From NCBI GenBank assembly GCA_007695355.1, contig REDX01000118.1, forward strand, positions 1 to 36,718: a DNA stretch of 36,718 nt. Reading direction: 5' to 3'. Each line of letters starts with the position of its first letter. The stretch's first letter is position 1. Below are positions 1-36,300 of the stretch, in pieces. The notes under the pieces are model-generated. The model did no database searches, was not told where the DNA came from, and saw nothing but the letters and a program-made list of their open reading frames with translations. Origin of the DNA: Planctomycetota bacterium. Its GTDB lineage: Bacteria; Planctomycetota; UBA11346. A program made the position numbers and the translations under genes.

Positions 1-180
1 CGGGGGGCAGCGGGGGGGCGGCAGCCCCCCAACGGCCGCCGAGGGAGGTAAGGGCGGATATAATCGCGAAGCGATCCGCCCTTAGGCGCGCAGCGCCGGC
101 CTCCCGACAGCGGCCGGGGGGAGCACGAGCCTAGGCGAGTGCGGACCGGGGGAGCCCGAGGGGGCAAAGCCCCCTCGAAA
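1..180 (-). repeat. GC-rich intergenic repeat, copy A (left part cut by window edge)
   Basis: Read on the minus strand, this segment starts with TTTCGAGGGG and runs through several GC hairpins to the window edge. A related element lies on the plus strand from 10541. The two share the TTTCGAGGGG start, a 23-base block around the central hairpin (here about 54-76) and a block of about 37 G/C-rich bases at 1-37. Both copies sit at the 3' end of a gene and in the same orientation relative to its transcription. Copy A also overlaps the last codons of the SGNH hydrolase gene. The function is unknown; a mobile or BIME-like repeat, or a transcript 3'-end element, are options. Confidence 0.75.
49..84 (-). 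repeat. Hairpin of repeat copy A
   Basis: An 11-base inverted repeat (arms 49-59 and 74-84) encloses a 14-base interior that can itself form a small hairpin. The equivalent hairpin in the other copy (10631-10664) has the same interior, but two stem pairs are swapped on both arms, so pairing is kept. Confidence 0.7.
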
Positions 181-805
181 TAAAAACGTACGAAAAGACA
201 CACCCCGCCAACCAATGCCCCTGGGCCGCGCAAATCGCAGGCTGAAAATGGACATGGTCGCGGTAGAGGTCGATTGCGTCGCCAAGGCCGAGGGTAAAGG
301 CGTGGAGATCTATGATCGGTATACCGGCGGCGGCCATAAGTTGATCAGCGCAAGCATTATAAGCGTCAACATCGGCAGCATGGCGGTGGAAGCGAATACC
401 TGGGCGCCGGTTATGGATATTATCGAGCAAGGGGGTAATGCGCAGCCACCAGAGGGGCCAAGAGCGCTGGGCGGCGAGGGTAATAATTTTGTTGAGTTGT
501 GTCGCGTAGGTATCAATGGGGACTTGCAGGGCATTCGCCGGTTGAGCGCGTTTAATGTCGTGAAGTCCGCAATTGAGCAGCATGAGATCTGGCTGGCCAA
601 TATCATCAGCGGCAACTTCAAGGTATTCGAGCACCTGCCCGCTATCGCCGCCATTGGCGCCACCTGCCACATCCAAGTTTAAACGAGCTAGGTCTCCCCC
701 CTCTTTGCGTCGATAGTCGGCCCAGGGCGCCAAGCTAGATCGTAGGCTTTCACCATAGTCCAGGCTAATGGAGTCGCCAAGAACAAAGACCTGTGGCCGA
801 ACCAT
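131..805 (-). CDS. SGNH/GDSL-family hydrolase
   Basis: Predicted 224-residue esterase/lipase-like hydrolase of the SGNH fold; the substrate cannot be told from sequence. Visible family blocks are block I with GDS (nucleophile Ser12), a Gly/Asn-rich block II near residues 48-55, a block III variant NCGLHD (Asn78), and block V DHVH (Asp183, His186), so the catalytic set looks complete. I see no signal peptide, which suggests a cytosolic enzyme. It starts 12 bases after the upstream ATPase gene ends and is probably co-transcribed with it. The ATG at 805 is preceded by an AGGGCAGG-like ribosome site. The last 15 or so residues are read from the GC-rich repeat, so the natural C-terminus was probably altered or replaced when the repeat arrived. 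Confidence 0.75.
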   Translation of the reverse strand: MVRPQVFVLGDSISLDYGESLRSSLAPWADYRRKEGGDLARLNLDVAGGANGGDSGQVLEYLEVAADDIGQPDLMLLNCGLHDIKRAQPANALQVPIDTYATQLNKIITLAAQRSWPLWWLRITPLLDNIHNRRPGIRFHRHAADVDAYNACADQLMAAAGIPIIDLHAFTLGLGDAIDLYRDHVHFQPAICAAQGHWLAGCVFSYVFISRGLCPLGLPRSALA

Positions 806-817
806 GACGCCTGCCCT

Positions 818-2503
818 TTAGGAATCTTGTTTGGCGATACGCAGCACTTCTTCGGGGGTGGTAATGCCCTGAAGGACTTTACGCACGCCGTCCATGGCCA
901 GGGTATTCATGCCATTGGCAATGGCGGCGGCGCGAACTTGATCGGTGGTGGCACCATCAAAGGCGAGCTGCCGAATCTGGCCGTTCATAACCATCAACTC
1001 ATAAATGCCGCGGCGGCCCTTATAACCGGAGAAATTGCATTTCTCACAGCCGCGCCCGCGCATGAGGGTGCGCCCTTCGAGCATTTCCGGGGTGATTTTC
1101 AGGGCTTTCAGATGCTTGGGATCGGCATTGAAGGGTTCTGCACAATGGGCGCAGTTGGTACGGATGAGGCGCTGGGCCAGTACCGCCTGGATGGAGGTGG
1201 CCACCAGGAAAGGCGCCACATCCATGTCGGTGAGACGGGTGATCGCCGAAGGCGCATCGTTGGTATGCAGGGTACTAAATACTAAGTGTCCAGTTAGCGC
1301 GGCGTTAATCGCGATGTTCGCCGTTTCGTGGTCGCGAATTTCACCGACCAGAATGACATTAGGAGCCTGGCGCAGCATGGCGCGGAGAATACGTGGAAAG
1401 TCCAAGCCAATGCGATGGCGCACTTGGCACTGATTAATCCCATCAAGCATGTATTCCACCGGGTCCTCGGCGGTAATGATTTTGCGATCAGAGGTATTGA
1501 GCTCGTTGAGGGTGGCATAGAGCGTAGTGGTCTTGCCCGAACCGGTGGGCCCTGTCACCAGAATAATGCCATTGGGCCGACGGATGAGGTCACTAAAGCG
1601 CTTATAGTCGGTGGGATCGAAACCCATATCGCCGAGACTCAGCTTCAGATTGTCTTGGTCGAGAATACGCATGACCACGCTCTCGCCATAAACCGCCGGC
1701 AGGGAACTGACGCGCAGGTCGATCATCTTACCGGCCAATTGCGCCTTAATCCGGCCGTCTTGGGGGCGGCGGCGCTCTTCTACCTGCATGCCGGCCATGA
1801 TTTTAATGCGCTGGATCACCGGGCCTTGTAAGCGCTTGGGGGCCGGATCCATGGCAAAGCAGATACCGTCGATGCGATAGCGAATGCGCAGGCGGTCGGC
1901 CATCGGCTCGATATGGATATCGGAGGCCTTGCTGTCGAGGGCGTTTTGCAGGATCTGGGTAACGTAGCGAATGACCGGGGCATCATCGCCGCTGGCTGTT
2001 TCTTCGTCTTCCAAATCGCGGTATTCGATGTTCTCCGTGAGCTCACCAAGCATTTGGTCAAGCTTGTCTTCGGAGTAGCCCCAGCCCCTTTCGAGGGCCT
2101 TAATGATTTGCCGCTCAGAAGCCACCGCCGCTTCAATCTGCCGCGACGTAGAGAAGCGCAGCGAGTCGATAATGCCCAGGTCGAGGGGATTGGCCATGGC
2201 CACGGTGAGGGTGCCTTCGCGCACCGCCACCGGGATGACCTTATTCTCGCGGCAGGTATCGCGGGGGATGAGCTCCAGCAGCTGGGTGGGGATCTCCATG
2301 GCTTCCAGGTCGATAAAGCGCATGTCGTACTGCTCGGCCAGGGCGCGGGCCACGTGCTCGGGCTGGCAGGCCTTCATCTCAACCAGGATTTCACCGATCG
2401 GGCGGGTATCGTTATCGTCGCGCTGCTTGGCTAGCGCAGCATTCACCTCAAGATCGGTGGTGACCTCCATCTCGGTGAGAATTTCGCCCAAGAACTTACG
2501 CAT
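818..2503 (-). CDS. Type IV pilus / type II secretion assembly ATPase (PilB/GspE/MshE family)
   Basis: Hexameric ATPase that powers pilus or pseudopilus extension at the inner membrane. It has 561 residues from the ATG at 2503, which has an AGGGAAGGG ribosome site; an in-frame ATG 22 codons upstream lacks one. Domain order is as follows. Two 24-residue MshEN-type repeats (4-27, 35-58) come first, then the N2 region. The core has Walker A GPTGSGKTT (318-326), an Asp box around EDPVEY (346-351) and Walker B ILVGEIRD (384-391, Glu388). The His box is near STLHTND (410-416). A zinc-type four-cysteine site is at Cys451, 454, 486 and 489. The MshEN repeats lack Arg1 and Gly10 of the c-di-GMP consensus, so nucleotide binding is doubtful. 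No other pilus or secretion gene is nearby, so PilB versus GspE is open. Confidence 0.92.
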   Translation of the reverse strand: MRKFLGEILTEMEVTTDLEVNAALAKQRDDNDTRPIGEILVEMKACQPEHVARALAEQYDMRFIDLEAMEIPTQLLELIPRDTCRENKVIPVAVREGTLTVAMANPLDLGIIDSLRFSTSRQIEAAVASERQIIKALERGWGYSEDKLDQMLGELTENIEYRDLEDEETASGDDAPVIRYVTQILQNALDSKASDIHIEPMADRLRIRYRIDGICFAMDPAPKRLQGPVIQRIKIMAGMQVEERRRPQDGRIKAQLAGKMIDLRVSSLPAVYGESVVMRILDQDNLKLSLGDMGFDPTDYKRFSDLIRRPNGIILVTGPTGSGKTTTLYATLNELNTSDRKIITAEDPVEYMLDGINQCQVRHRIGLDFPRILRAMLRQAPNVILVGEIRDHETANIAINAALTGHLVFSTLHTNDAPSAITRLTDMDVAPFLVATSIQAVLAQRLIRTNCAHCAEPFNADPKHLKALKITPEMLEGRTLMRGRGCEKCNFSGYKGRRGIYELMVMNGQIRQLAFDGATTDQVRAAAIANGMNTLAMDGVRKVLQGITTPEEVLRIAKQDS

Positions 2504-2672
2504 GATGTGAACCCTTCCCTCGCCAAAACCGCTGATCGGTGATAATGGTAGCCAGCACAGGTTCAGCACGAACCATCACGCCAGCCCCGCAGCGGCCATA
2601 AGATTAGGCCGATTCGCCATAACCAAGACCCAAGGGCTTAGCCCTGGCCCCTGGTCGTGTGACATGCCGCGC

Positions 2673-3074
2673 TTAGTGAGCGTGATGCTTGAGGGCCACC
2701 ACGGCATCGATTTCCACCACCCCGCCCTTTGGCAAGGCGGCCACCTGAATGCACGCGCGGGCCGGATAAGGCTGACTGAAGGCCTCGGCATACAGGCCAT
2801 TGACTAGGGCAAAGTCTCTCAGGTCGGTCAAATAGATGGTGCAGCGCAAGGCCTGGTGCAAACTGGTGCCGGCGGCCTCACAGATCGCCTGTAGATTGGC
2901 CAAGGCCTGACGGGTTTGAGCCTCTATGCCGCCTTCAACCAGGTTGCCGCTAACCGGGTCTAGGCCCAGTTGGCCACTGATCCAAAGCTGGCCCCCACTC
3001 TGCATGGCCTGGGAGTAGGGGCCGATGGCGGCCGGGGCCTGGGGCGTGGCAATGGGCTGACGGTCGATGGTCAT
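2673..3074 (-). CDS. ridA: RidA family enamine/imine deaminase
   Basis: A 133-residue member of the RidA/YjgF/UK114 family, cytosolic trimers that hydrolyse reactive enamine or imine intermediates such as 2-aminoacrylate. The active-site arginine is Arg106 in PARACIQV, followed by PKGG and the conserved Glu121 in the VEIDAV signature. IGPYSQA and the WISGQ strand are also typical. The ATG at 3074 is chosen because GAAGGA lies six bases upstream; a TTG two codons earlier is less likely. It lies 44 bases after the metallophosphoesterase gene and probably belongs to the same operon. A 169-base gap without an obvious promoter separates it from the ATPase gene. Confidence 0.93.
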   Translation of the reverse strand: MTIDRQPIATPQAPAAIGPYSQAMQSGGQLWISGQLGLDPVSGNLVEGGIEAQTRQALANLQAICEAAGTSLHQALRCTIYLTDLRDFALVNGLYAEAFSQPYPARACIQVAALPKGGVVEIDAVVALKHHAH

Positions 3075-3118
3075 GAACAATCCTTCGGGCTGGGGAGTGA
3101 AGAGTGGGTCGAGGGGGA

Positions 3119-3895
3119 TTAGATACCTTCACCCAGGCGCTCAGCGAGAAACTCGTGGAGGCCGGCGGCGAGTATTTTGGCTTGGGTGGTGGCAATATCA
3201 TAGGCCAAGCGATGGAAGGTAATGCGATCGCCATCGATGGTGGCAAAGCTTGCACGTGGGTCATTGTCCCGGGGTTGGCCAACCGAGCCCACACAGACAT
3301 AAGCCTTATGCCCCTTAGGCAGGACGAAGGTATTGTGGGCGTCATGGGGAAATAAGGTTCCGATGCGCGTCGCCATAAAAGGCGTATGGTTATGGCCCGC
3401 AAAGCAGAGATCGAAGCCAGCGAAGTCCCGTTCAAGGGTTTCGATCATTTGTTCGGCTTCGACGGGGTTTTCCGGTTCATCGACATAATCGTGCACCGGA
3501 TCATAGATCGATCCATGCACCAGCAGATGATTGTCGAGAAGTTCGAAGGGCTTGCGCTCGGAAAACCAGGCGAGGCGATCAGGGGCAGTGCGGCTAAACA
3601 TCTTGGTGATCGCATTGCTGCCACCGCGCAATTGCGAGCGCGTCCAATCGATGGCTTGGGCGGCATAAGGATTGAAGCGGTGCTTGCCGGTGACCAGAGC
3701 CTCTTCGTGATTGCCCATAAGGCTCACCGAAAAACGTTCGATGGCGATATCGGCCACCGCTACCGGATCTGGCCCATAACCGATGACATCGCCGAGGCAG
3801 CGAATTTCGCTAACCCCCAATTCATCGCATTTGGCCAGCACCACGCTTAGCGCTTCAAGGTTGGAATGGATGTCGGAAACAATCGCAATGGGCAT
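3119..3895 (-). CDS. Calcineurin-like metallophosphoesterase (YfcE/ApaH-like fold)
   Basis: Cytosolic 258-residue two-metal phosphoesterase. The metal-binding blocks appear in order: SDIHSN (Asp8, His10), CLGDVIGYGPDP (Asp36), GNHEE (Asn62, His63), LLVHGS, and FAGHNHTP. The GYGPDP extension and the GNHEE motif fit the subgroup often annotated as diadenosine-tetraphosphatase-like or generic metallophosphatase. The true substrate (phosphodiester, nucleotide or protein phosphate) cannot be told. The ATG lies one base after the maf stop codon, and its ribosome site GAGGAG is inside the maf coding end, so the two are translationally coupled. Confidence 0.88.
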   Translation of the reverse strand: MPIAIVSDIHSNLEALSVVLAKCDELGVSEIRCLGDVIGYGPDPVAVADIAIERFSVSLMGNHEEALVTGKHRFNPYAAQAIDWTRSQLRGGSNAITKMFSRTAPDRLAWFSERKPFELLDNHLLVHGSIYDPVHDYVDEPENPVEAEQMIETLERDFAGFDLCFAGHNHTPFMATRIGTLFPHDAHNTFVLPKGHKAYVCVGSVGQPRDNDPRASFATIDGDRITFHRLAYDIATTQAKILAAGLHEFLAERLGEGI

Positions 3896-3896
3896 G

Positions 3897-4508
3897 TTAC
3901 ATCTCCTCAGGCTGCTGACCGGTGACCTGACGATACAGCCGGCGCACCACTCCTACCTGCAAACCTATAACTGTGTCGCGCTCACCGCTGATATCGGCGA
4001 CAAAGGGATCTGCATCCCCCTGAATGGCATAGCCGCCGGCCTTGCCGATGCCTTCGCCGCTGGCGACGTAGTCATCGATCTGCTGGGGCGAGAGGGGAAG
4101 CATGGTGACCTGGGCCAGGGCCACCGCCACCGCCTCCACCGGCTCTGCACCATCAAGGGCCGGGCGGTAGCAGCAATGGGCCGTCATCACCGTATGGCGG
4201 CTGCCACTCAAGCGCTGCAGCATATCCCGAGCTTCTTCCGGCGTCGTTGGCGAGCCGAGGGCCTGGTTGCCATGAGCGACCACCGTATCGGCGGCGAGAA
4301 TGACGGCGTGGGGCTGGCTAAAAGCAGCGCGGTGATCCTGCCACTGGGCGGCCAGGGCCTTCGCCCGAGCCCGCTCAATGGCGATGGCCTGGGCCACTCC
4401 AGAGCCCGCCGCTGCGGCGTCATCGAGGGTGTCGATGGTGAGAAAGCGCAAGCCTGCTTGGCGCAGCAGGTACTGGCGCTGAGGGCTGCGGCTGGCGAGC
4501 AGGATCAT
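3897..4508 (-). CDS. maf: Maf-type nucleoside triphosphate pyrophosphatase
   Basis: A 203-residue Maf/Ham1-like house-cleaning enzyme that hydrolyses non-canonical or excess NTPs to NMP and pyrophosphate. The N-terminal ASRSPQR loop, the LAADTVV motif (Asp74) and the KAGGYAIQG segment are present. The last of these is the form found in the dTTP/UTP (YhdE-type) branch rather than the m7GTP (YceF-type) branch. The ATG at 4508 has GGGGAGA six bases upstream; the frame stays open for another 107 codons upstream, but that part is Arg/Pro/Ser-rich and overlaps the divergent hemL. It is the first gene of a minus-strand run with the phosphoesterase and ridA. Confidence 0.92.
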   Translation of the reverse strand: MILLASRSPQRQYLLRQAGLRFLTIDTLDDAAAAGSGVAQAIAIERARAKALAAQWQDHRAAFSQPHAVILAADTVVAHGNQALGSPTTPEEARDMLQRLSGSRHTVMTAHCCYRPALDGAEPVEAVAVALAQVTMLPLSPQQIDDYVASGEGIGKAGGYAIQGDADPFVADISGERDTVIGLQVGVVRRLYRQVTGQQPEEM

Positions 4509-4728
4509 TGCATATCTCCCCTTGACGATGACGGCGGTATACTCCTGAGTGTGGGGGCTAGATGGCGGGGAGCAAGACTGCTGATCCTGCCCTGGACGGT
4601 TTCGGGCTGGGGGCGGCGACCGGCGGCAAACCGCCTTAACGGGATGTGATGAGCAGGCGCGGGGTGGGCCTGGACCCGCCCCGGCACACGACACACTGGC
4701 CGCGCGCCCCCTGCATCCAGGAGTTCCC

Positions 4729-26389: not shown

Positions 26390-28328
<1,939 letters not shown>

Positions 28329-28368: not shown

Positions 28369-30006
28369 CTACGATTCCGACCCCCGATACCCTACACGTT
28401 GTTGACGATTATTTTGATCAGCGTGCCCCGCCGTACCGCGGACCAGGAGCAGAAGATTCCGCACCATGCTCTGCAGTTCATCTGCCTGGGCATTTAATTC
28501 CTCACTCACCGATGCTGACTCTTCTGCCGCAGCGGCGTTGGATTGAGTTACTTCATCAAGCTGCTGAACGCCGCCGTTAATTTGATCGATACCACGGGAC
28601 TGTTCTGCGCTTGCCGTCGATACTTCACCGATGAGTTGAGTCACTTTACTAATACCGCTAATTATGCGTCCCAAAACCTCTTCGACTTCCTGCGAGACGG
28701 AAACCCCATTGGCGGCATTGGATTGGCTTTCAGAGATCAGTTCTGCGGTATTGCGGGCAGCCTCAGCGGATCGCTGGGCTAAATTGCGGACCTCTTCAGC
28801 CACTACCGCAAAGCCCTTTCCGGCATCTCCAGCGCGGGCTGCCTCTACCGCCGCATTCAAGGCGAGAAGATTGGTTTGGAAAGCGATTTCATCAATCGTT
28901 TTAATGATTTTAGCTGTTTGATCTGCACCGGATTTGATCAGCCCAATGGCTTCTATCATGCGCTGCATACTGACTCGAGACTGATTTACCGCCTGCTCGA
29001 CTTCGCGGGTCATACCATCGGCCTGGCCAGCATTGTCGGCATTCTGACGCGTCATCGAGGATAGCTCTTCAAGGGCTGAAGCGGTTTCTTCTAGGCTGGC
29101 CGCTTGTTCACTGGCCCCCTGAGCCATGGATTGGCTAGCCGAGGACACCTGCCCGGAAGCAGACGATACTTGATCGGCGCCTTCACCTAAGGAAGCCGCA
29201 ATTACTGAAATTGGGCGCTCAACCGTGCGGATAATGATCGCAGCAAATCCAAGGCCTCCTACCGCTAAGGCCAGAAGCACCGCAAGACCACCCCACATCA
29301 TCGTACTCGCCAGATCAGCATCTGCTTCGTCCAATGATTGAGAAATCATGAAGGCAGCGTGAAAATCCCCAAGTTCCATGCCCTCCATAGCAACACCTGT
29401 CGGGTCAAGGCCACGCGGATTGTCCTTGGGGTTTGGCCAAATATTGTGCGCGGGATTGCTCGCCGATCCGTGACAATAGAGACAGGTCTCGCCCAGATAC
29501 ACCGCCCTATAATAACGCACGGCATTGTTTGCCGGATCGCGCAAAACCAAATCGTTGTCATTGGTATTTCCCGGCATGAGACGGGGGCGCTGACGCTGCA
29601 ATTGCTCTAGAGCTTTGAGATCAAGCGCATCCGGCTTGTTCAACCTATTGCGCGGATTCACCTTCGGCGCTCGGAAAGTGTAGCCGCCAGCCTCAGCCTG
29701 CATTGAAGCAGCACGCAATGCCGATATAACAGGCACAGCTTCAAGAATTCGACGCCGACCTTCTCTACCCTCTTGCGACCAAGCCTGCAACTGTTCTGCA
29801 TGGAAGGCGCCAACTGCCCACTTATCTTCCATATTTAGACGCGCCGACTCGGCGGTCAGCGTTATTCCGATAGCCTTTTCTACTAAGGCATCTTCTGTGG
29901 CCTGCTTTGTCTGGAAGAAATAAAAGACAAAGAGTACCGTTAAAAGGATCGCCGGAAAGGCGATGCCAATGCCGACAAGCTTAAAGCGCAAGGATTTGCG
30001 TTGCAT
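28369..30006 (-). CDS. Methyl-accepting chemotaxis protein with periplasmic c-type heme (Tll0287/DUF3365-like) sensor domain
   Basis: A 545-residue receptor. Membrane helix 1 spans about residues 11-31, the periplasmic sensor 32-235, helix 2 about 236-259, and a long cytoplasmic signalling coil follows. The sensor has [18 protein letters not shown] with a CxxCH heme-attachment motif (Cys175, Cys178, His179), matching the Tll0287-like (DUF3365) family. The signalling tip has [21 protein letters not shown] and a full [19 protein letters not shown] region. No HAMP domain is obvious. No C-terminal CheR-docking pentapeptide is seen. The start is set at the ATG at 30006 because GGAG lies nine bases upstream. 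It likely senses redox state or a diatomic gas, and it sits with cheR and cheB. Confidence 0.93.
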
Positions 30007-30146
30007 GTATCTAATCTCCATAGTGGACAGGTTGTCCTAATGATAAAATCTTGAGCTATCAACTCATACCACCAACTTCGACTCGCCTATTCGTACCAAT
30101 GATTTTGATGACTTCAAGCGCCAATCCTCAATAATACTACCCACTT

Positions 30147-32639
30147 TTAACCATGAGCGAGGGCCACTAAAGCAGGAGGATCGGCAATCAGGCCAACACT
30201 GCCATCAGACATAATCGCCCCACCAGCGATGCCTGGCACTTGACGCAAACCACTGCCCAAACTCTTGATCACGATCTGCTGTTTACCAAGAAGTTCATCC
30301 ACCATCAACGCCACCTTTCGCTGCGTATCATCGAGCACCACCAGTAAGGCCTGTTTCGGATCCTCAATCGCATCGGTGACGTTCAGTAAGCGATGCAGGC
30401 GGATTATGGGGATCACCTCACCGTGCAGGTTTATCAACTCCCCTTTGCCCAAAGCTTTGGAAAGTTGCTCCGGCATAGGTCGCATCGAGCGAGTAATCGC
30501 AAGCGTCGGAATAATGTAACGCTCACCGCCAATACGACACACCATCCCATCGATAATTGCCAACGTCAGCGGTAGGCGAATGGTGAACGTCGATCCTTTG
30601 CCCAATGATGAATCGATGTCCACTTGCCCACGTAATTCTTGAATTGCCTTTTTCACCACATCCATGCCGACACCGCGACCGGAAAGATCGCTGACTGCGG
30701 CAGCAGTGCTAAATCCCGGGTGGAAAATCAGTTTATAAACATCGGAATCGCTCATCTCTTGAGCTTCCGCAGCACTAATAATCCCTTTTTCAACCGCTTT
30801 GCTCGTCAAACGAGTACGGTCCATGCCGCGACCGTCATCGCGGATTTGAATGCAAATGTTGCCACCCTGATGGAAGGCTCGCAACTCGACCAGGCCAGTT
30901 GACGATTTACCTGCCGTTTGCCGCTGCGCGGAATTTTCCTCTAATCCATGGTCAATGGCATTGCGCACCATATGCACCAGTGGATCACCGATGCGATCAA
31001 CCACATTCTTGTCTAACTCTGTGTCCTCTCCATACATACGGAAATCCACCGCTTTTCCCGTTCGAGTGGCGACATCCCGGGCCAATCTGGCCATGCGCTG
31101 AAAAGTACTTTTAATCGGCGTCATTCGCAATGAGGTTGCAATCTCTTGCAACTCACGGGTTATTTTTCCAAGTAGATTCAGCCGTTGTCCTAATTCGGAA
31201 CCTGCCTGAGCAAGCCTGCGCACATCCGAATCTTGGCTGACCATGCTTTCTGCTATCACCAACTCGCCAATTGCGTCAACCAAACGATCGAGACGAAGCG
31301 CATCGACTTTTACTGCATCACGCACCACCGTTGCCCCGGATTGTCGTTGCCGGCGTAAAGCCTTCGATACTTGCTTGGCATCTACCACCTGCTGCCGCAC
31401 CAGAACCTCACCAAGGCGCCGCTTAGTGCCATCGGCACCGGCTTGGCGCTGCAGGGCCTGTGTAAGTTCCTCTTCTTCAACCAATCCCGACTCGACTAAA
31501 ATCTCCCCCAATCGCGGCCCTTGGGGATCCGGCTGCGCCGCCTCCTCGCCATTACCAAACATACGCTCGTCATCTACCGCCCGCAGCAATCGACCGCACA
31601 GAGTGTCAAGGGGGATATCGATAAGCAGTTCCGACTTGCCCTTTTCAATGGCCTCCCGAAGCCCCAAATTAAGTCGCTTCATCCCATCGATGGCATCGAA
31701 GACCAGGTCAATCGCCGCCGAAGAAGGCGGCCGTTGGCGACAAATGTCAAGAAAGGTTTCGGCGTGGTGAGCAAGTTTCTGAATGGGATCCAACTCCATG
31801 AATCCGGCCAGTCCTTTAATCGTATGAAATGATCGAAAGAGCGCATTAATCGCTTCAACATTGCTGGCATCAGTATCCAATTCGAGTAAATGTACTTCAG
31901 CGTTTTCCAAATGTTCACTAGCCTCAGTCGTAAATTCTCCCAGTAGGGCGGCATCTGCGGCGAGTCTAAATCCTGCAGTCGCCGGACTCAGGGCTTGATC
32001 ATCGACGAGGGCCGCCAGCACCACACCCAAGTCTGGTATAGTGGATTCATCACTGGAGTCTCTGCCCCCAAGCCGCCAACGCAGCCAGGTCAAAGCTGGG
32101 AATAAGGCCTGACTCGGCAATCGCGGCGCAGCCAGCGCGTCTTCAAGCCCGCTACACCACTGCTGCACATCCGCCAATTCCAGCATACCGCTTTCACCTT
32201 TGATGGTGTGCACGTGGCGACGCCAAAACGACCTTGCTGCCTCATCGCTTTCGTCCTGCTCCAACATCTGTGCCTGCTCTTCTAAAGCATCAAGGAGTCC
32301 AAGGGCGCGTTGGGCAAATTCCTCTAAGATGGCGCCAGCATCCTCTTCCTGGGCGGTGGAGAGCGTTTGCAGATCCAACTCCGCGGCACCCTGCAACTGA
32401 GCCACTCCATTGACTAAGGCCGTATAGACCGCCTCGTTGTCAGACGCGCGTTCATGGATAAGATCATCGAGTTGGCTGTCCATGTGCGCAAGTACGGCAC
32501 GCCGTGGATCGTCGTCGCTAAAAGCTTCCAGTAATTGTTGACAATACTGCTGGGCGGTAAGCAGACTCTGCCAATCGGTGGCGTCGAGTAAGACAACGGC
32601 TTCGGCCAAGCGTTCAATCGTGGCGTCATGTTCTGACAT
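30147..32639 (-). CDS. cheA: Chemotaxis histidine kinase CheA with tandem HPt and an MshEN-like tandem motif
   Basis: An 830-residue CheA. The first HPt domain has its phospho-histidine in HTIKGESG (His144). A second HPt follows with FHTIKGLAGF (His272). Where the P2 domain would be expected there are two 24-residue motifs, 376-399 and 408-431, each starting RLGE and ending in Q, like the MshEN c-di-GMP-binding repeats. The first fits the full consensus, the second deviates at positions 10 and 17. Then come the dimerisation helices (DALRLDRLVDAIGELV), the ATP-binding domain (N box HMVRNAIDHG, DDGRGMD, GRGVGMDVV) and a C-terminal CheW-like domain. The ATG at 32639 has GGGGAAGAG directly upstream. 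A 140-base AT-richer gap to the receptor gene holds no clear promoter. Confidence 0.95.
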   Translation of the reverse strand: MSEHDATIERLAEAVVLLDATDWQSLLTAQQYCQQLLEAFSDDDPRRAVLAHMDSQLDDLIHERASDNEAVYTALVNGVAQLQGAAELDLQTLSTAQEEDAGAILEEFAQRALGLLDALEEQAQMLEQDESDEAARSFWRRHVHTIKGESGMLELADVQQWCSGLEDALAAPRLPSQALFPALTWLRWRLGGRDSSDESTIPDLGVVLAALVDDQALSPATAGFRLAADAALLGEFTTEASEHLENAEVHLLELDTDASNVEAINALFRSFHTIKGLAGFMELDPIQKLAHHAETFLDICRQRPPSSAAIDLVFDAIDGMKRLNLGLREAIEKGKSELLIDIPLDTLCGRLLRAVDDERMFGNGEEAAQPDPQGPRLGEILVESGLVEEEELTQALQRQAGADGTKRRLGEVLVRQQVVDAKQVSKALRRQRQSGATVVRDAVKVDALRLDRLVDAIGELVIAESMVSQDSDVRRLAQAGSELGQRLNLLGKITRELQEIATSLRMTPIKSTFQRMARLARDVATRTGKAVDFRMYGEDTELDKNVVDRIGDPLVHMVRNAIDHGLEENSAQRQTAGKSSTGLVELRAFHQGGNICIQIRDDGRGMDRTRLTSKAVEKGIISAAEAQEMSDSDVYKLIFHPGFSTAAAVSDLSGRGVGMDVVKKAIQELRGQVDIDSSLGKGSTFTIRLPLTLAIIDGMVCRIGGERYIIPTLAITRSMRPMPEQLSKALGKGELINLHGEVIPIIRLHRLLNVTDAIEDPKQALLVVLDDTQRKVALMVDELLGKQQIVIKSLGSGLRQVPGIAGGAIMSDGSVGLIADPPALVALAHG

Positions 32640-32689
32640 CTCTTCCCCTTCACCAAGATTTACCATAACGGCCAGCCAGGCCCCGGCGA

Positions 32690-33640
32690 TTAAGCACCCG
32701 AAGCACTCTCAGCCTGGCGCACCTGCACCGCCGTACGGGCAGCCCGCAGTAACTTCGGCACTAAACTACGCTGTACCGCCTCACTGTCTCGGTACAAATT
32801 GAGCTCTTCTTTATCCACCACATCAACCGCCCCCGCTTCCATCACCTTGCGCCGCATTGCCGATCCTTCTTTCGCGATGGTGGAAACCACAACTGTCGGT
32901 ATGGGCTTATATTGCATAATTTTCCGCAGAAAGGTAAGGCCATCCATGCGCGGCATAATAATGTCTAAACATAATACGTCAGGGTCTAACTCCAAAACCA
33001 ATTCACGGGCCTCATAAGGATTTTCAGCCTCACCGCATATCTCCAAACTTTTGCTTAACTCTATGCCATTGCGCAATAAACGCCGTACCGTGCTGGAATC
33101 GTCAACGATAAGCACTCGCGGCAATCTTCCCTGTAGGCGCTCTTGGCGTTGCGCGGCGGCCTGGTTCTGTTCGCTCTGATTAATCAGATTGACTCGTACC
33201 TCCCCCGTAGCCACATCGAAGAAAAGCTTGCGCCCGGTGGTACCCCCTACTTGGCGCTCGGTAATTCGCAGACTGTGGTCGCGGCATAGACGATCGGCAA
33301 TTTCTATATTGCGATTGCCAATATCCATACTGCCGACACTGGCTAAATGCCCAACTACCCTTGCCCCACCATAGAGACGACCGCGCAAATCCTCAATTCG
33401 ACAGCCAGCCATGAGCGCCACCTTAAGCAGATTAGCAATCGCTTTGTCACCGTATTTACCGGGCGCCAAACCGCCACCGCCTTGATCCGATTCTGGCAGC
33501 ATATAGTGGTTCATGCCACCCCATTTACGCTTCGCATCGTGAATCACCAATGCAATGCACGATCCCAGCAAAGTGGAAATAACCGTTGGCTCTTTGGCAA
33601 AATGAGCTTCACCCGGTAGTAAAAATACGCTTTTATTCAT
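32690..33640 (-). CDS. CheD deamidase fused to a CheB-type receiver domain
   Basis: A 316-residue protein of two parts. Residues 1-155 are CheD, the receptor glutamine deamidase, with the Thr23/Cys28/His45 triad (STLLGSC and GGMNHYMLP) and the conserved GKYGDKAI and GGTTGRKLFF stretches. After a Gln-rich linker, residues 174 to about 300 are a receiver domain with phospho-acceptor Asp226 in CLDIIMPRMDG and a CheB-like tail (STIAKEG, AGAVDVVDKEE). The methylesterase domain of CheB is absent. It sits between the two cheA genes, 50 bases before the second. The fused receiver could place deamidation under CheA control, or the receiver could act as a phosphate sink. Confidence 0.93.
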   Translation of the reverse strand: MNKSVFLLPGEAHFAKEPTVISTLLGSCIALVIHDAKRKWGGMNHYMLPESDQGGGGLAPGKYGDKAIANLLKVALMAGCRIEDLRGRLYGGARVVGHLASVGSMDIGNRNIEIADRLCRDHSLRITERQVGGTTGRKLFFDVATGEVRVNLINQSEQNQAAAQRQERLQGRLPRVLIVDDSSTVRRLLRNGIELSKSLEICGEAENPYEARELVLELDPDVLCLDIIMPRMDGLTFLRKIMQYKPIPTVVVSTIAKEGSAMRRKVMEAGAVDVVDKEELNLYRDSEAVQRSLVPKLLRAARTAVQVRQAESASGA

Positions 33641-33705: not shown

Positions 33706-35880
33706 TCATCCGATCCCTGTCGCAGTTAAAATCTTTATGTTCTCTGGCCCAGTCTGCGATGGGTGACCTGCACCACATAAGCAATCAAGATCTATTATCA
33801 GGGCAACGCTTCCGTCACCGAGGAGGGCGCCTCCTGAAATAAGCCGGGTATCAGTACCAAGCCCGTCGATAGCACGAACGACCACTTGCTGCACGCCAAG
33901 TACCGCATCGACCACCAAGAGAAAACGCCGTAAATCTTGCCCATGACGAATTTGACAACAGACCCCAACCCGCTCCGACTCGCTGGCCGTCGAAATCTGT
34001 GACCAGGCCAGTGGATCAAAGACTGCCGCCAGGGGTATGACTGGGAAAATGGAGTCTTCACTTCGGTAGCCATAGCGATCAGACTCTAGACGATGCAAAC
34101 GCTCGGCGTCAAAGCGCATATTGCTGTGGACGCGATCCATCGGCAAAACCAAAACATGCTCGCGAACGCGCACGAGGAACCCCTGGATTATCTCGGTGGT
34201 GACTGATTTCGGCAGGCTCATGCGGAATTGCGTTCCCATCCCCGGTTGGAATTCTATATCGATCCGACCACCCGCCTCGACAATGCTTGCATGAACCACA
34301 TCTAAACCTACCCCCCGTCCCGAAATTTCCGAAACTTCTTTGGCGGTACTTAAGCCAGAGGAAAAAATCAATCGCGATAGGGTGTCGGCATCGATGACCG
34401 CACCTGGGGCTAAAAGGCCTCGACGCTCGGCCGATTGACGGATCGCAGCATGATCCAGGCCACGCCCATCATCGCTAACACATAATCGGATCATCGATTC
34501 GTCTTCTTCGATGGAAATGCGCACCTCTGCACACGGATCTTTATTCGCAGCCCGGCGCTGCTGGGGGCTTTCGATGCCATGATCCACGGCATTACGGACG
34601 AGATGCACTAATGGCGCATCAAGAAGTTCAACCAAACGCTTATCCAGGCGTAAGCCCTCACCTTGTAGAATGACGCGCACTTCCTTTCCTTGGTCGCTAG
34701 CCACATCTCGCACCAAGCGTGGCAAGCGCCGTAATAGCACCTCGGCCGGCAGCTGCCGTATGGACATAATGCTTGACTGAAGCTTTCCTGATAGGCCCTG
34801 GAACGTCTCATGGGCGCGTCGCAGATCTGTAGCCAAGGTGCTCAACGCAGTTTCGTGCGCGCTGGCTGCAAGGCCTGCTAAACGCCGCTGAAGGTGGTGA
34901 AAGGTATCGCCAATGACTAGTAAATCGCCAACATAGGCGAGAAAGGTGTCAATATGCTCTTCACTGACACGCATCGTTCGCTGCTGATCGCCGGTGGCTT
35001 GCATCGCAAGCGTTGACATATCCGGCGCTGACACGGATGGCGATCGTTGTTGAACTTGTGCCGTCGAATCCGCTTCTCCATTATGCCACGCCCATTGTGC
35101 TTTTGTCGCCATCTCATCGACATGGTTCAATAGCCATTGCCGGAGGGTTTCATCAAAACCGACGCTCTCAGTAAAGACCTGATATCCATCCCAACATTCT
35201 TCAGCCAAAGCCGAGGCTTCATCATCTAGAGCAGCTGCACGAATTTCCTGCAGTATAGATTCCACCTCCAAACAGGTGTCATCATCCAGGACTTCTTCAA
35301 TCGGCTCTTTGAGCAGAGAACGCAATCGAGATGGTGGGCTATGGCTTCCCTCGCTTGCTCCTACACTATCCCCAACTGCCAAAGCCTCCGCGATGTGCTG
35401 CAGGCGCGCAGCCAAGGGGTGCCCGTCGTTGTGCAGAGATTGCAGCACATCAAACAGTTCATGCTGCCATTTGACCTGAGGACCGACTCGCGATCGTGCC
35501 GCAGTAAGGCGAGTTCTTAAATCCTTAACCGAAAGCCCTTGCACATCGGCATGCCGCCCTTGCCGCAACTCGCCAAGGGTCTTTCTACTCCAATCAAGAA
35601 CCGCGAGAAGGACTTCGATAATCTGGGGCCCCGGCTTTTCCTGCCCCTGCCGCAGGCCGTCGAGGAGATACTCTGCATCGTGGGACACTAGCTTTAAAGC
35701 CTCACATCCGAAAAGCGCGGCATTGCCTTTGAGAGAATGAATAATCCGGAATATCTCCTGCACCTCTTTAGCAGCCGGACGCCCATGCTCAAGGGCTAAG
35801 AGACAGGCTTCGGCAGCCTGAATCCCCTCCAAGCTCTCCTCAATAAATTCACTCACCAATCCCGCATCTAGCCCATCCAT
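33706..35880 (-). CDS. Chemotaxis histidine kinase CheA, second paralogue
   Basis: A 724-residue CheA-type kinase. An HPt domain has IIHSLKGNAALFG (His48). A long variable region without a recognisable P2 or MshEN motif follows (about 130-300). Dimerisation helices follow near VSEEHIDTFLAYVGDLLVIGD. The ATP-binding domain has HLVRNAVDHGIE, DDGRGLD and GRGVGLDVV. A CheW-like domain ends with GGALLGDGSVALIID. It starts 6 bases after cheY. Two CheA kinases in one operon imply either a heterodimer or two outputs. The dimer interface differs from the other CheA, which favours separate roles. Confidence 0.93.
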   Translation of the reverse strand: MDGLDAGLVSEFIEESLEGIQAAEACLLALEHGRPAAKEVQEIFRIIHSLKGNAALFGCEALKLVSHDAEYLLDGLRQGQEKPGPQIIEVLLAVLDWSRKTLGELRQGRHADVQGLSVKDLRTRLTAARSRVGPQVKWQHELFDVLQSLHNDGHPLAARLQHIAEALAVGDSVGASEGSHSPPSRLRSLLKEPIEEVLDDDTCLEVESILQEIRAAALDDEASALAEECWDGYQVFTESVGFDETLRQWLLNHVDEMATKAQWAWHNGEADSTAQVQQRSPSVSAPDMSTLAMQATGDQQRTMRVSEEHIDTFLAYVGDLLVIGDTFHHLQRRLAGLAASAHETALSTLATDLRRAHETFQGLSGKLQSSIMSIRQLPAEVLLRRLPRLVRDVASDQGKEVRVILQGEGLRLDKRLVELLDAPLVHLVRNAVDHGIESPQQRRAANKDPCAEVRISIEEDESMIRLCVSDDGRGLDHAAIRQSAERRGLLAPGAVIDADTLSRLIFSSGLSTAKEVSEISGRGVGLDVVHASIVEAGGRIDIEFQPGMGTQFRMSLPKSVTTEIIQGFLVRVREHVLVLPMDRVHSNMRFDAERLHRLESDRYGYRSEDSIFPVIPLAAVFDPLAWSQISTASESERVGVCCQIRHGQDLRRFLLVVDAVLGVQQVVVRAIDGLGTDTRLISGGALLGDGSVALIIDLDCLCGAGHPSQTGPENIKILTATGIG

Positions 35881-35886
35881 GAACTA

Positions 35887-36300
35887 TCAACCCAACGATT
35901 CTTGGCCTGGCACCAATCCTAATTGTCCCAGGGCCTGGGCTAAACCTTCAGTGGTAATCGGTTTGGTGAGATAACCATCTGCATTACCGCGAAAGGCCCC
36001 AAAAATATTGTCCTTATCACTCATGGAGGTGGTCATCAGTACCTTTGCCCCCTTGCCGATGGGATATCCGGCGGCTTGCTCACGCAGCCGCAAGGCTTTA
36101 AGGGTGGCCTGACCATCCAGATTAGGCATCTGAATATCAAGGCAGATCAAATCATAGGGACGACCATCAGCGAGAGCAAGATCCACCGCCTGTAAGGCCT
36201 CAACCCCGTCGCTAGCAATATCACAGTCGCCAAAACGAGCCAACTGAGCCGAAAGCGCCTTACGGCAAACAAAATCATCTTCAACCACCAGACTAAGCAT
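35887..36300 (-). CDS. Single-domain response regulator (CheY-like)
   Basis: A 137-residue stand-alone receiver domain with acidic pocket EDD near residues 7-9, phospho-acceptor Asp55 (CLDIQMPNLDG), Thr90/Thr91 and Lys113 in LTKP. There is a Gly-rich loop insertion near 78-85. No output domain follows, so it acts through protein contact, as CheY does on a flagellar or pilus motor or as a phosphate sink. It is the first gene of the operon. The ATG has GGGAGAG five bases upstream, and the stop is 6 bases before the next cheA. Confidence 0.92.
   Translation of the reverse strand: MLSLVVEDDFVCRKALSAQLARFGDCDIASDGVEALQAVDLALADGRPYDLICLDIQMPNLDGQATLKALRLREQAAGYPIGKGAKVLMTTSMSDKDNIFGAFRGNADGYLTKPITTEGLAQALGQLGLVPGQESLG

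Follow-up and report, generated by a model that had tools for sequence, protein, structure and literature searches.

The window analyzed here is a stretch of 36,718 nucleotides from a Planctomycetota bacterium (contig REDX01000118.1). Between positions 26390 and 36300, its minus strand carries a chemosensory gene cluster in the order CheY, a CheA that lacks the module described below, CheD-REC, a CheA that contains this module, a chemoreceptor, CheR and CheB:

35887..36300, minus strand: CheY-like receiver (Pfam PF00072)
33706..35880, minus strand: second CheA of the cluster, without the MshEN motif pair (Pfam, NCBIfam)
32690..33640, minus strand: CheD-REC fusion (Pfam PF03975 and PF00072)
30147..32666, minus strand: CheA histidine kinase, ORF of 839 residues, with the order HPt1, HPt2, MshEN_N motif pair, P3, HATPase, CheW (ORF, Pfam, full-length AlphaFold2 model)
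28369..30021, minus strand: chemoreceptor with a Tll0287-like sensor domain (Pfam PF00015 and PF11845)
27540..28328, minus strand: CheR (Pfam PF01739)
26390..27583, minus strand: CheB (Pfam PF01339 and PF00072)

Two CheAs are encoded in this one cluster, with the MshEN pair in one only and the CheD-REC fusion alongside. In a congener (L195) the ORF order of the cluster is apparently kept, as judged by size and opening sequence. The Tll0287-like sensor domain of the chemoreceptor contains a CxxCH motif (CLYCH), which suggests that this receptor may be a c-type haem sensor. A second CheA-MshEN with a receptor, 67% identical, is found in the same assembly (L034, G000:C131, positions 1-4558) and is either a genuine paralogue or a contaminant that stems from a related species.

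Within the module-bearing CheA, an internal ATG would give a protein of 830 residues. Because the sequence AAGGGG adjoins this ATG on its 5′ side and is absent 5′ of the first ATG, the shorter form looks right as the more likely product. Residues are nonetheless numbered here in the 839-residue ORF, such that 385-408 and 417-440 correspond to 376-399 and 408-431 when counted from the internal ATG. The features of this CheA, together with the comparison copy of the motif pair in the PilB/GspE-type ATPase of the window, are:

32073..32348, minus strand: HPt1, about residues 107-198, His153 (Pfam Hpt in two stretches, HTIKG at 153, AlphaFold2 helices)
31689..31946, minus strand: HPt2, residues 241-326, His281 (Pfam PF01627)
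31443..31514, minus strand: MshEN motif I, residues 385-408, RLGEILVESGLVEEEELTQALQRQ, all consensus positions matched (PMC5013675)
31419..31442, minus strand: spacer AGADGTKR, 8 residues (5 in MshE, 1 to 13 in other CheAs)
31347..31418, minus strand: MshEN motif II, residues 417-440, RLGEVLVRQQVVDAKQVSKALRRQ, Gln at position 10 and Val at position 17
31134..31316, minus strand: P3 dimerisation domain, residues 451-511 (Pfam PF02895)
30564..30986, minus strand: P4 ATPase domain, residues 561-701 (Pfam PF02518; N, G1 and G2 boxes intact)
30162..30548, minus strand: P5 CheW-like domain, residues 707-835 (Pfam PF01584)
2330..2494, minus strand: degenerate MshEN pair of the PilB/GspE-type ATPase, residues 26-80 (comparison copy)

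All CheA hallmarks are present, namely the phospho-accepting His153 and His281, P3, the P4 boxes (HMVRNAIDH, DDGRGM and GRGVGMD) and P5. A Pfam scan gave no match to a P2 family in this protein, and the MshEN_N bundle occupies its place. P2, the CheY/CheB-binding domain of E. coli CheA, is missing from many CheAs, and a protein without it may still belong to the family. The initial annotation had put the motif pair in the place of P2, between HPt and P3, and both Pfam and the full-length AlphaFold2 model indeed locate it directly before P3; it left unmentioned that there are two HPt domains, marked by His153 and His281. Residues 12-96 (window 32379-32633) form four helices with good model confidence and have no Pfam match, and may be a further HPt-like domain or another type of bundle.

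The MshEN consensus spans 24 residues, RLGxx[LVI][LVI]xxG[LVI][LVI]xxxxLxxxLxxQ (PMC5013675). A six-frame search of the window with a relaxed form of this motif gave four matches only, two in CheA and two in PilB; shuffled windows averaged 0.017 single matches each, and none of 300 shuffles contained a pair. The NCBIfam model NF053729 (“cyclic di-GMP-binding domain-containing protein, MshE-related”; 53 positions, curated cut-off 38 bits) aligned in full to CheA residues 385-440, scoring 45.4 bits (E = 5.2e-12). These data rule out chance similarity as the source of the pair. When solved structures were searched with the single CheA sequence (phmmer), PilB (5TSG) and MshE (5HTL) were recovered with E-values of 1.5e-7 and 1.5e-4, respectively, and a profile of 34 CheA linkers matched PilF (6F8L, 2.6e-28) and MshE (5HTL, 3.8e-10). 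Profile comparison of the CheA element with the PilB of the window gave a probability of 96%. Thus, the CheA element shares ancestry with MshEN_N, the subdomain that binds c-di-GMP. The initial annotation had described two 24-residue repeats separated by 8 residues at 31347-31514, the first fitting the entire consensus and the second departing from it at positions 10 (Gln) and 17 (Val); its coordinates and numbering are exact, and the sequence bears out both readings. It had also considered the CheA copy better kept than that of PilB (818-2569), and the scores agree, as PilB reaches 35.7 bits on NF053729, just under the cut-off, compared to the 45.4 bits of CheA. A sub-threshold match to Pfam DUF4388 (22.4 of 25 bits) at CheA residues 415-450 overlaps motif II only, and that partially.

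By contrast, the Pfam MshEN profile, PF05157, found no match in the CheA of the window at E ≤ 1. This search, the first check that the initial annotation had proposed, yields a false negative: in the PilB of the window PF05157 covers residues 81-161 (2087-2329), directly after the motif pair at 26-80. The profile describes the C-terminal subdomain, MshEN_C, and so is unable to test for the motif pair, and we dismissed it as the deciding test. MshEN_C is absent from CheA, where P3 starts about 10 residues past motif II, and the protein is therefore of the MshEN_N-only type. Pfam-based annotation overlooks MshEN_N-only proteins, as PF05157 leaves out the c-di-GMP motif pair.

AlphaFold2 modeled the domain and the start of P3 as four helices, with pLDDT values of 93-96 in the best-modeled blocks. 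The top Foldseek match of this model was MshE with c-di-GMP (5HTL), at a probability of 1.00 and an rmsd of 1.1 Å across 60 columns; PilF GSPII-B structures with bound c-di-GMP came next. The Foldseek E-values were modest (0.018 and up) because the domain is small. Comparison of a model with c-di-GMP-bound MshE had been suggested at the outset, and it returned the paired MshEN fold. The models show an MshE-type four-helix bundle as the predicted fold of CheA residues 385-440. In the full-length CheA model (mean pLDDT 77.7) the helices span residues 386-392, 398-408, 418-424 and 430-444, and low-confidence linkers, 372-381 and 445-454, flank the bundle. Because of these linkers, the MshEN_N bundle looks like a tethered module rather than a rigid extension of P3. 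A rigid junction of helix 4 with P3 was considered, since the fragment model contains a long helix there, but the full-length model replaces it with the low-confidence linker.

The grip of MshE on each guanine comes from Arg1, from a cluster in which Leu2 of one motif meets Leu17 and Leu21 of its partner, and from the backbone amides at Gly3 and residue 4; Gln24 holds ribose and phosphate (PMC5013675). The CheA of the window keeps R1, L2, G3, L17, L21 and Q24 in both motifs, except for the conservative replacement of Leu17 of motif II by Val. Studies of PilF showed that positions 17 and 21 accept other large hydrophobic residues, and that Lys, Leu or, in GSPII-C, Pro can stand in for Arg1 (PMC11731258, PMC12002112). 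In PilF GSPII-A, Leu to Ile changes at two aliphatic positions shifted affinity only 2.4-fold, Gly3 to Ala loses about 10-fold affinity, and Gln24 is required (PMC12002112). Position 10 is a turn glycine that makes no ligand contact (PMC5013675). Nor is MshEN_C needed for binding, because isolated MshEN_N (residues 1-62) binds c-di-GMP at 0.35 μM (PMC5013675). These comparisons show an intact predicted ligand site in the CheA of the window, and we consider it quite likely that the protein binds c-di-GMP. Counting against this are the replacement of the turn glycine by Gln at position 10 of motif II and the spacer of 8 rather than 5 residues. Furthermore, a matching consensus is not proof of binding, since PilF GSPII-A with its consensus restored did not bind in the full domain (PMC12002112). 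The bundle might instead have kept the MshEN_N fold and lost c-di-GMP binding, and would then do the job of P2, either as a plain spacer or by giving CheY, CheB or CheD-REC a place to dock. Gln at position 10 of motif II and the location of the module in the P2 position fit this reading, as does XpsE, a known MshEN protein that does not bind (PMC5013675). We regard it as rather unlikely, however, in view of the conservation of the element among CheAs.

At least nine phyla have CheAs with the motif pair, as seen in CheAs of related and of named genomes. A survey of CheA homologues, as the initial annotation had advised, found it in 73 of 112 CheA ORFs retrieved by using the CheA of the window as bait and in 8 of 41 CheA ORFs that lie lower in the ranking and belong to the same phylum; both sets were gathered by similarity to a pair-bearing CheA, and these fractions are not prevalence estimates. 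The titles of pair-bearing records name Planctomycetota, Nitrospirota, Deltaproteobacteria, Actinomycetota (Virgisporangium, Actinoplanes), KSB1, Omnitrophota, Chitinispirillia, Holophagaceae, Eisenbacteria and Halorhodospira. NF053729 matches all 34 linkers of a reduced set, with the linker of the window giving the best E-value there. In a tree built from 151 CheA cores, the occurrences of the pair cluster, yet about 21 gains or losses are needed, and a single origin of the CheA-MshEN combination could not be claimed. CheA relatives from the phylum of the window group with Scalindua and other Planctomycetota, which makes an origin of the window in Planctomycetota probable. Cultured hosts also carry the pair, namely Desulfacinum infernum (L070), Malonomonas rubra (L076) and Actinoplanes (L079, L081).

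Across 90 aligned CheA pairs (about 66 effective), mean column entropy was 1.16 bits for ligand contacts, 1.50 bits for the core and 2.74 bits for other surface positions; because a profile of this very element served to collect the sample, the absolute values are inflated and it is the order of the column classes that is informative. In these pairs Gly3 is found in 98% in both motifs, and Gln24 in 79% for motif I and 98% for motif II. Gly387, Gly419, Gln440, His281 and ATP-site residues are invariant in 16 full-length CheAs. Over many phyla, the columns in contact with the ligand vary less than those of the hydrophobic core, which argues against a loss of binding, and the conserved polar Gln24 would be superfluous in a mere spacer. 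On the other side, orthologues of the same family carry degenerate motifs, as would be expected if binding had been lost. Indeed, the ligand site is not strictly kept within the bacterial family of the window, because position 1 of motif I is Pro in the nearest congener and two CheAs of this family (L006, L007) have degenerate motifs; in the second copy of this genome the same position is Lys. Loss of the motif could not be tied to missing diguanylate cyclases within the family, a comparison that did not discriminate, as GGDEF was found in 20 of 23 genomes and the other three are incomplete.

Several variants of the module were evident. One CheA subfamily in the bacterial family of the window (L022, L025, L031, L032, L033, L027, L029) keeps the fold pattern and has lost Gln24 of motif I, and its members are probable non-binders as judged from their motifs. 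Some CheAs of Omnitrophota, Scalindua and Deltaproteobacteria (L037, L087, L046, L051, L057, L059) contain three or four tandem MshEN half-motifs and perhaps bind more than one ligand. Nitrospira-type CheAs (L043, L047, L058, L062, L063, L066, L067, L069 and others) have a spacer of one residue only, and so short a link may impose another geometry or a site shared between two molecules of a dimer.

The genome encodes two GGEEF proteins (diguanylate cyclases), one with an RxxD I-site, and two HD-GYP proteins, as well as FliG and three MshEN-type ATPase matches; these counts come from profile searches of an assembly that is 86% complete and 6% contaminated. The same searches gave no match to EAL or PilZ, absences that are provisional at this completeness, and MshEN domains were the sole standard c-di-GMP receptor family found in the 86% complete assembly. 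Because GGEEF proteins are encoded, the organism probably makes c-di-GMP. These cyclases also bear on whether the module recognizes another dinucleotide, such as 3′,3′-cGAMP, or is specialized for a different ligand. MshE does bind cGAMP, albeit weakly (0.33 mM; PMC5013675), but the presence of GGEEF-type cyclases and the retention in both motifs of Gly3, whose backbone recognizes guanine O6/N7, make this reading extremely improbable.

We judge it reasonably likely that the module is an MshEN_N-only c-di-GMP receptor that stands in the P2 position and adjusts CheA kinase output. On this proposal, residues 385-440 would form a free-standing MshEN_N bundle, without MshEN_C, between HPt2 and the P3 helices, where E. 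coli CheA has P2, and one c-di-GMP would most likely bind across the two half-motifs. The bound ligand would then alter the access of the tethered HPt domains to the ATPase core, or the docking of the module. In this way c-di-GMP may adjust CheA phosphorylation and couple the sessile or motile state to the chemosensory pathway. That c-di-GMP affects kinase output, in one direction or the other, is a plausible conjecture. Speaking against it, the low-confidence linkers leave no rigid link between module and kinase visible in the full-length model. The flexible linkers on either side of the bundle in the full-length model would also suit a module that binds c-di-GMP and controls not the kinase reaction but where, or with which partner, CheA assembles (the pole, the pilus machine or the second CheA). 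The second CheA without the module in the same cluster and the related modules on MshEN-type ATPases of the same genome are in keeping with such a role; coupling to the kinase is equally easy to imagine, however, and we hold control of assembly to be improbable. The broader proposition that CheA is gated directly by c-di-GMP, bound inside the kinase without an adaptor, in a family that extends over at least nine phyla and for which the literature searched (open-licence papers) yielded no experiment on a CheA-MshEN, appears to us evenly poised between true and false. Known links between c-di-GMP and chemotaxis lie mostly around the kinase, for example in PilZ adaptors or in chemoreceptors that bear PilZ (the Cbp1 and MapZ papers). 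If the receptor reading is true, c-di-GMP could influence the kinase through a receptor domain within CheA, ahead of any response regulator. The conservation of the ligand site makes c-di-GMP binding by CheA-MshEN worth measuring.

The combination of CheA and MshEN was already noted in 2016 and is widespread, and what is new is this CheA as a further example. The initial annotation knew of no described CheA with MshEN, a statement refuted by Wang et al. 2016, who include “chemotaxis protein kinase CheA” among MshEN fusions (PMC5013675). The motif pair is also common in CheAs of many phyla, and NCBI already models it. The fusions of Wang et al. resemble the protein of the window in joining MshEN to CheA; they are only listed there, and the accessible part of the main text reports no CheA member as tested (PMC5013675). 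V. cholerae MshE (5HTL, PMC5013675) shares the two 24-residue motifs, the four-helix bundle and the same ligand-contact residues; unlike MshE, which is an ATPase, the protein of the window is a CheA, lacks MshEN_C, has a spacer of 8 rather than 5 residues and carries Gln and Val at positions 10 and 17 of motif II. PilF GSPII-C (6F8L) is the best-scoring relative among solved structures, with a spacer that likewise exceeds 5 residues, but PilF is a traffic ATPase, and in its GSPII-B the two Arg residues kept in the CheA of the window are replaced by Lys and Leu. E. coli NfrB provides an example of a non-ATPase regulated via its MshEN domain (Kd of 1.0 μM; PMC8669469), although NfrB is a glycosyltransferase and its MshEN is C-terminal. 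Finally, classical CheAs (E. coli 6S1K, Thermotoga 4XIV) share P1, P3, P4 and P5 with the CheA of the window, which differs from them in having MshEN_N for P2 and two HPt domains.
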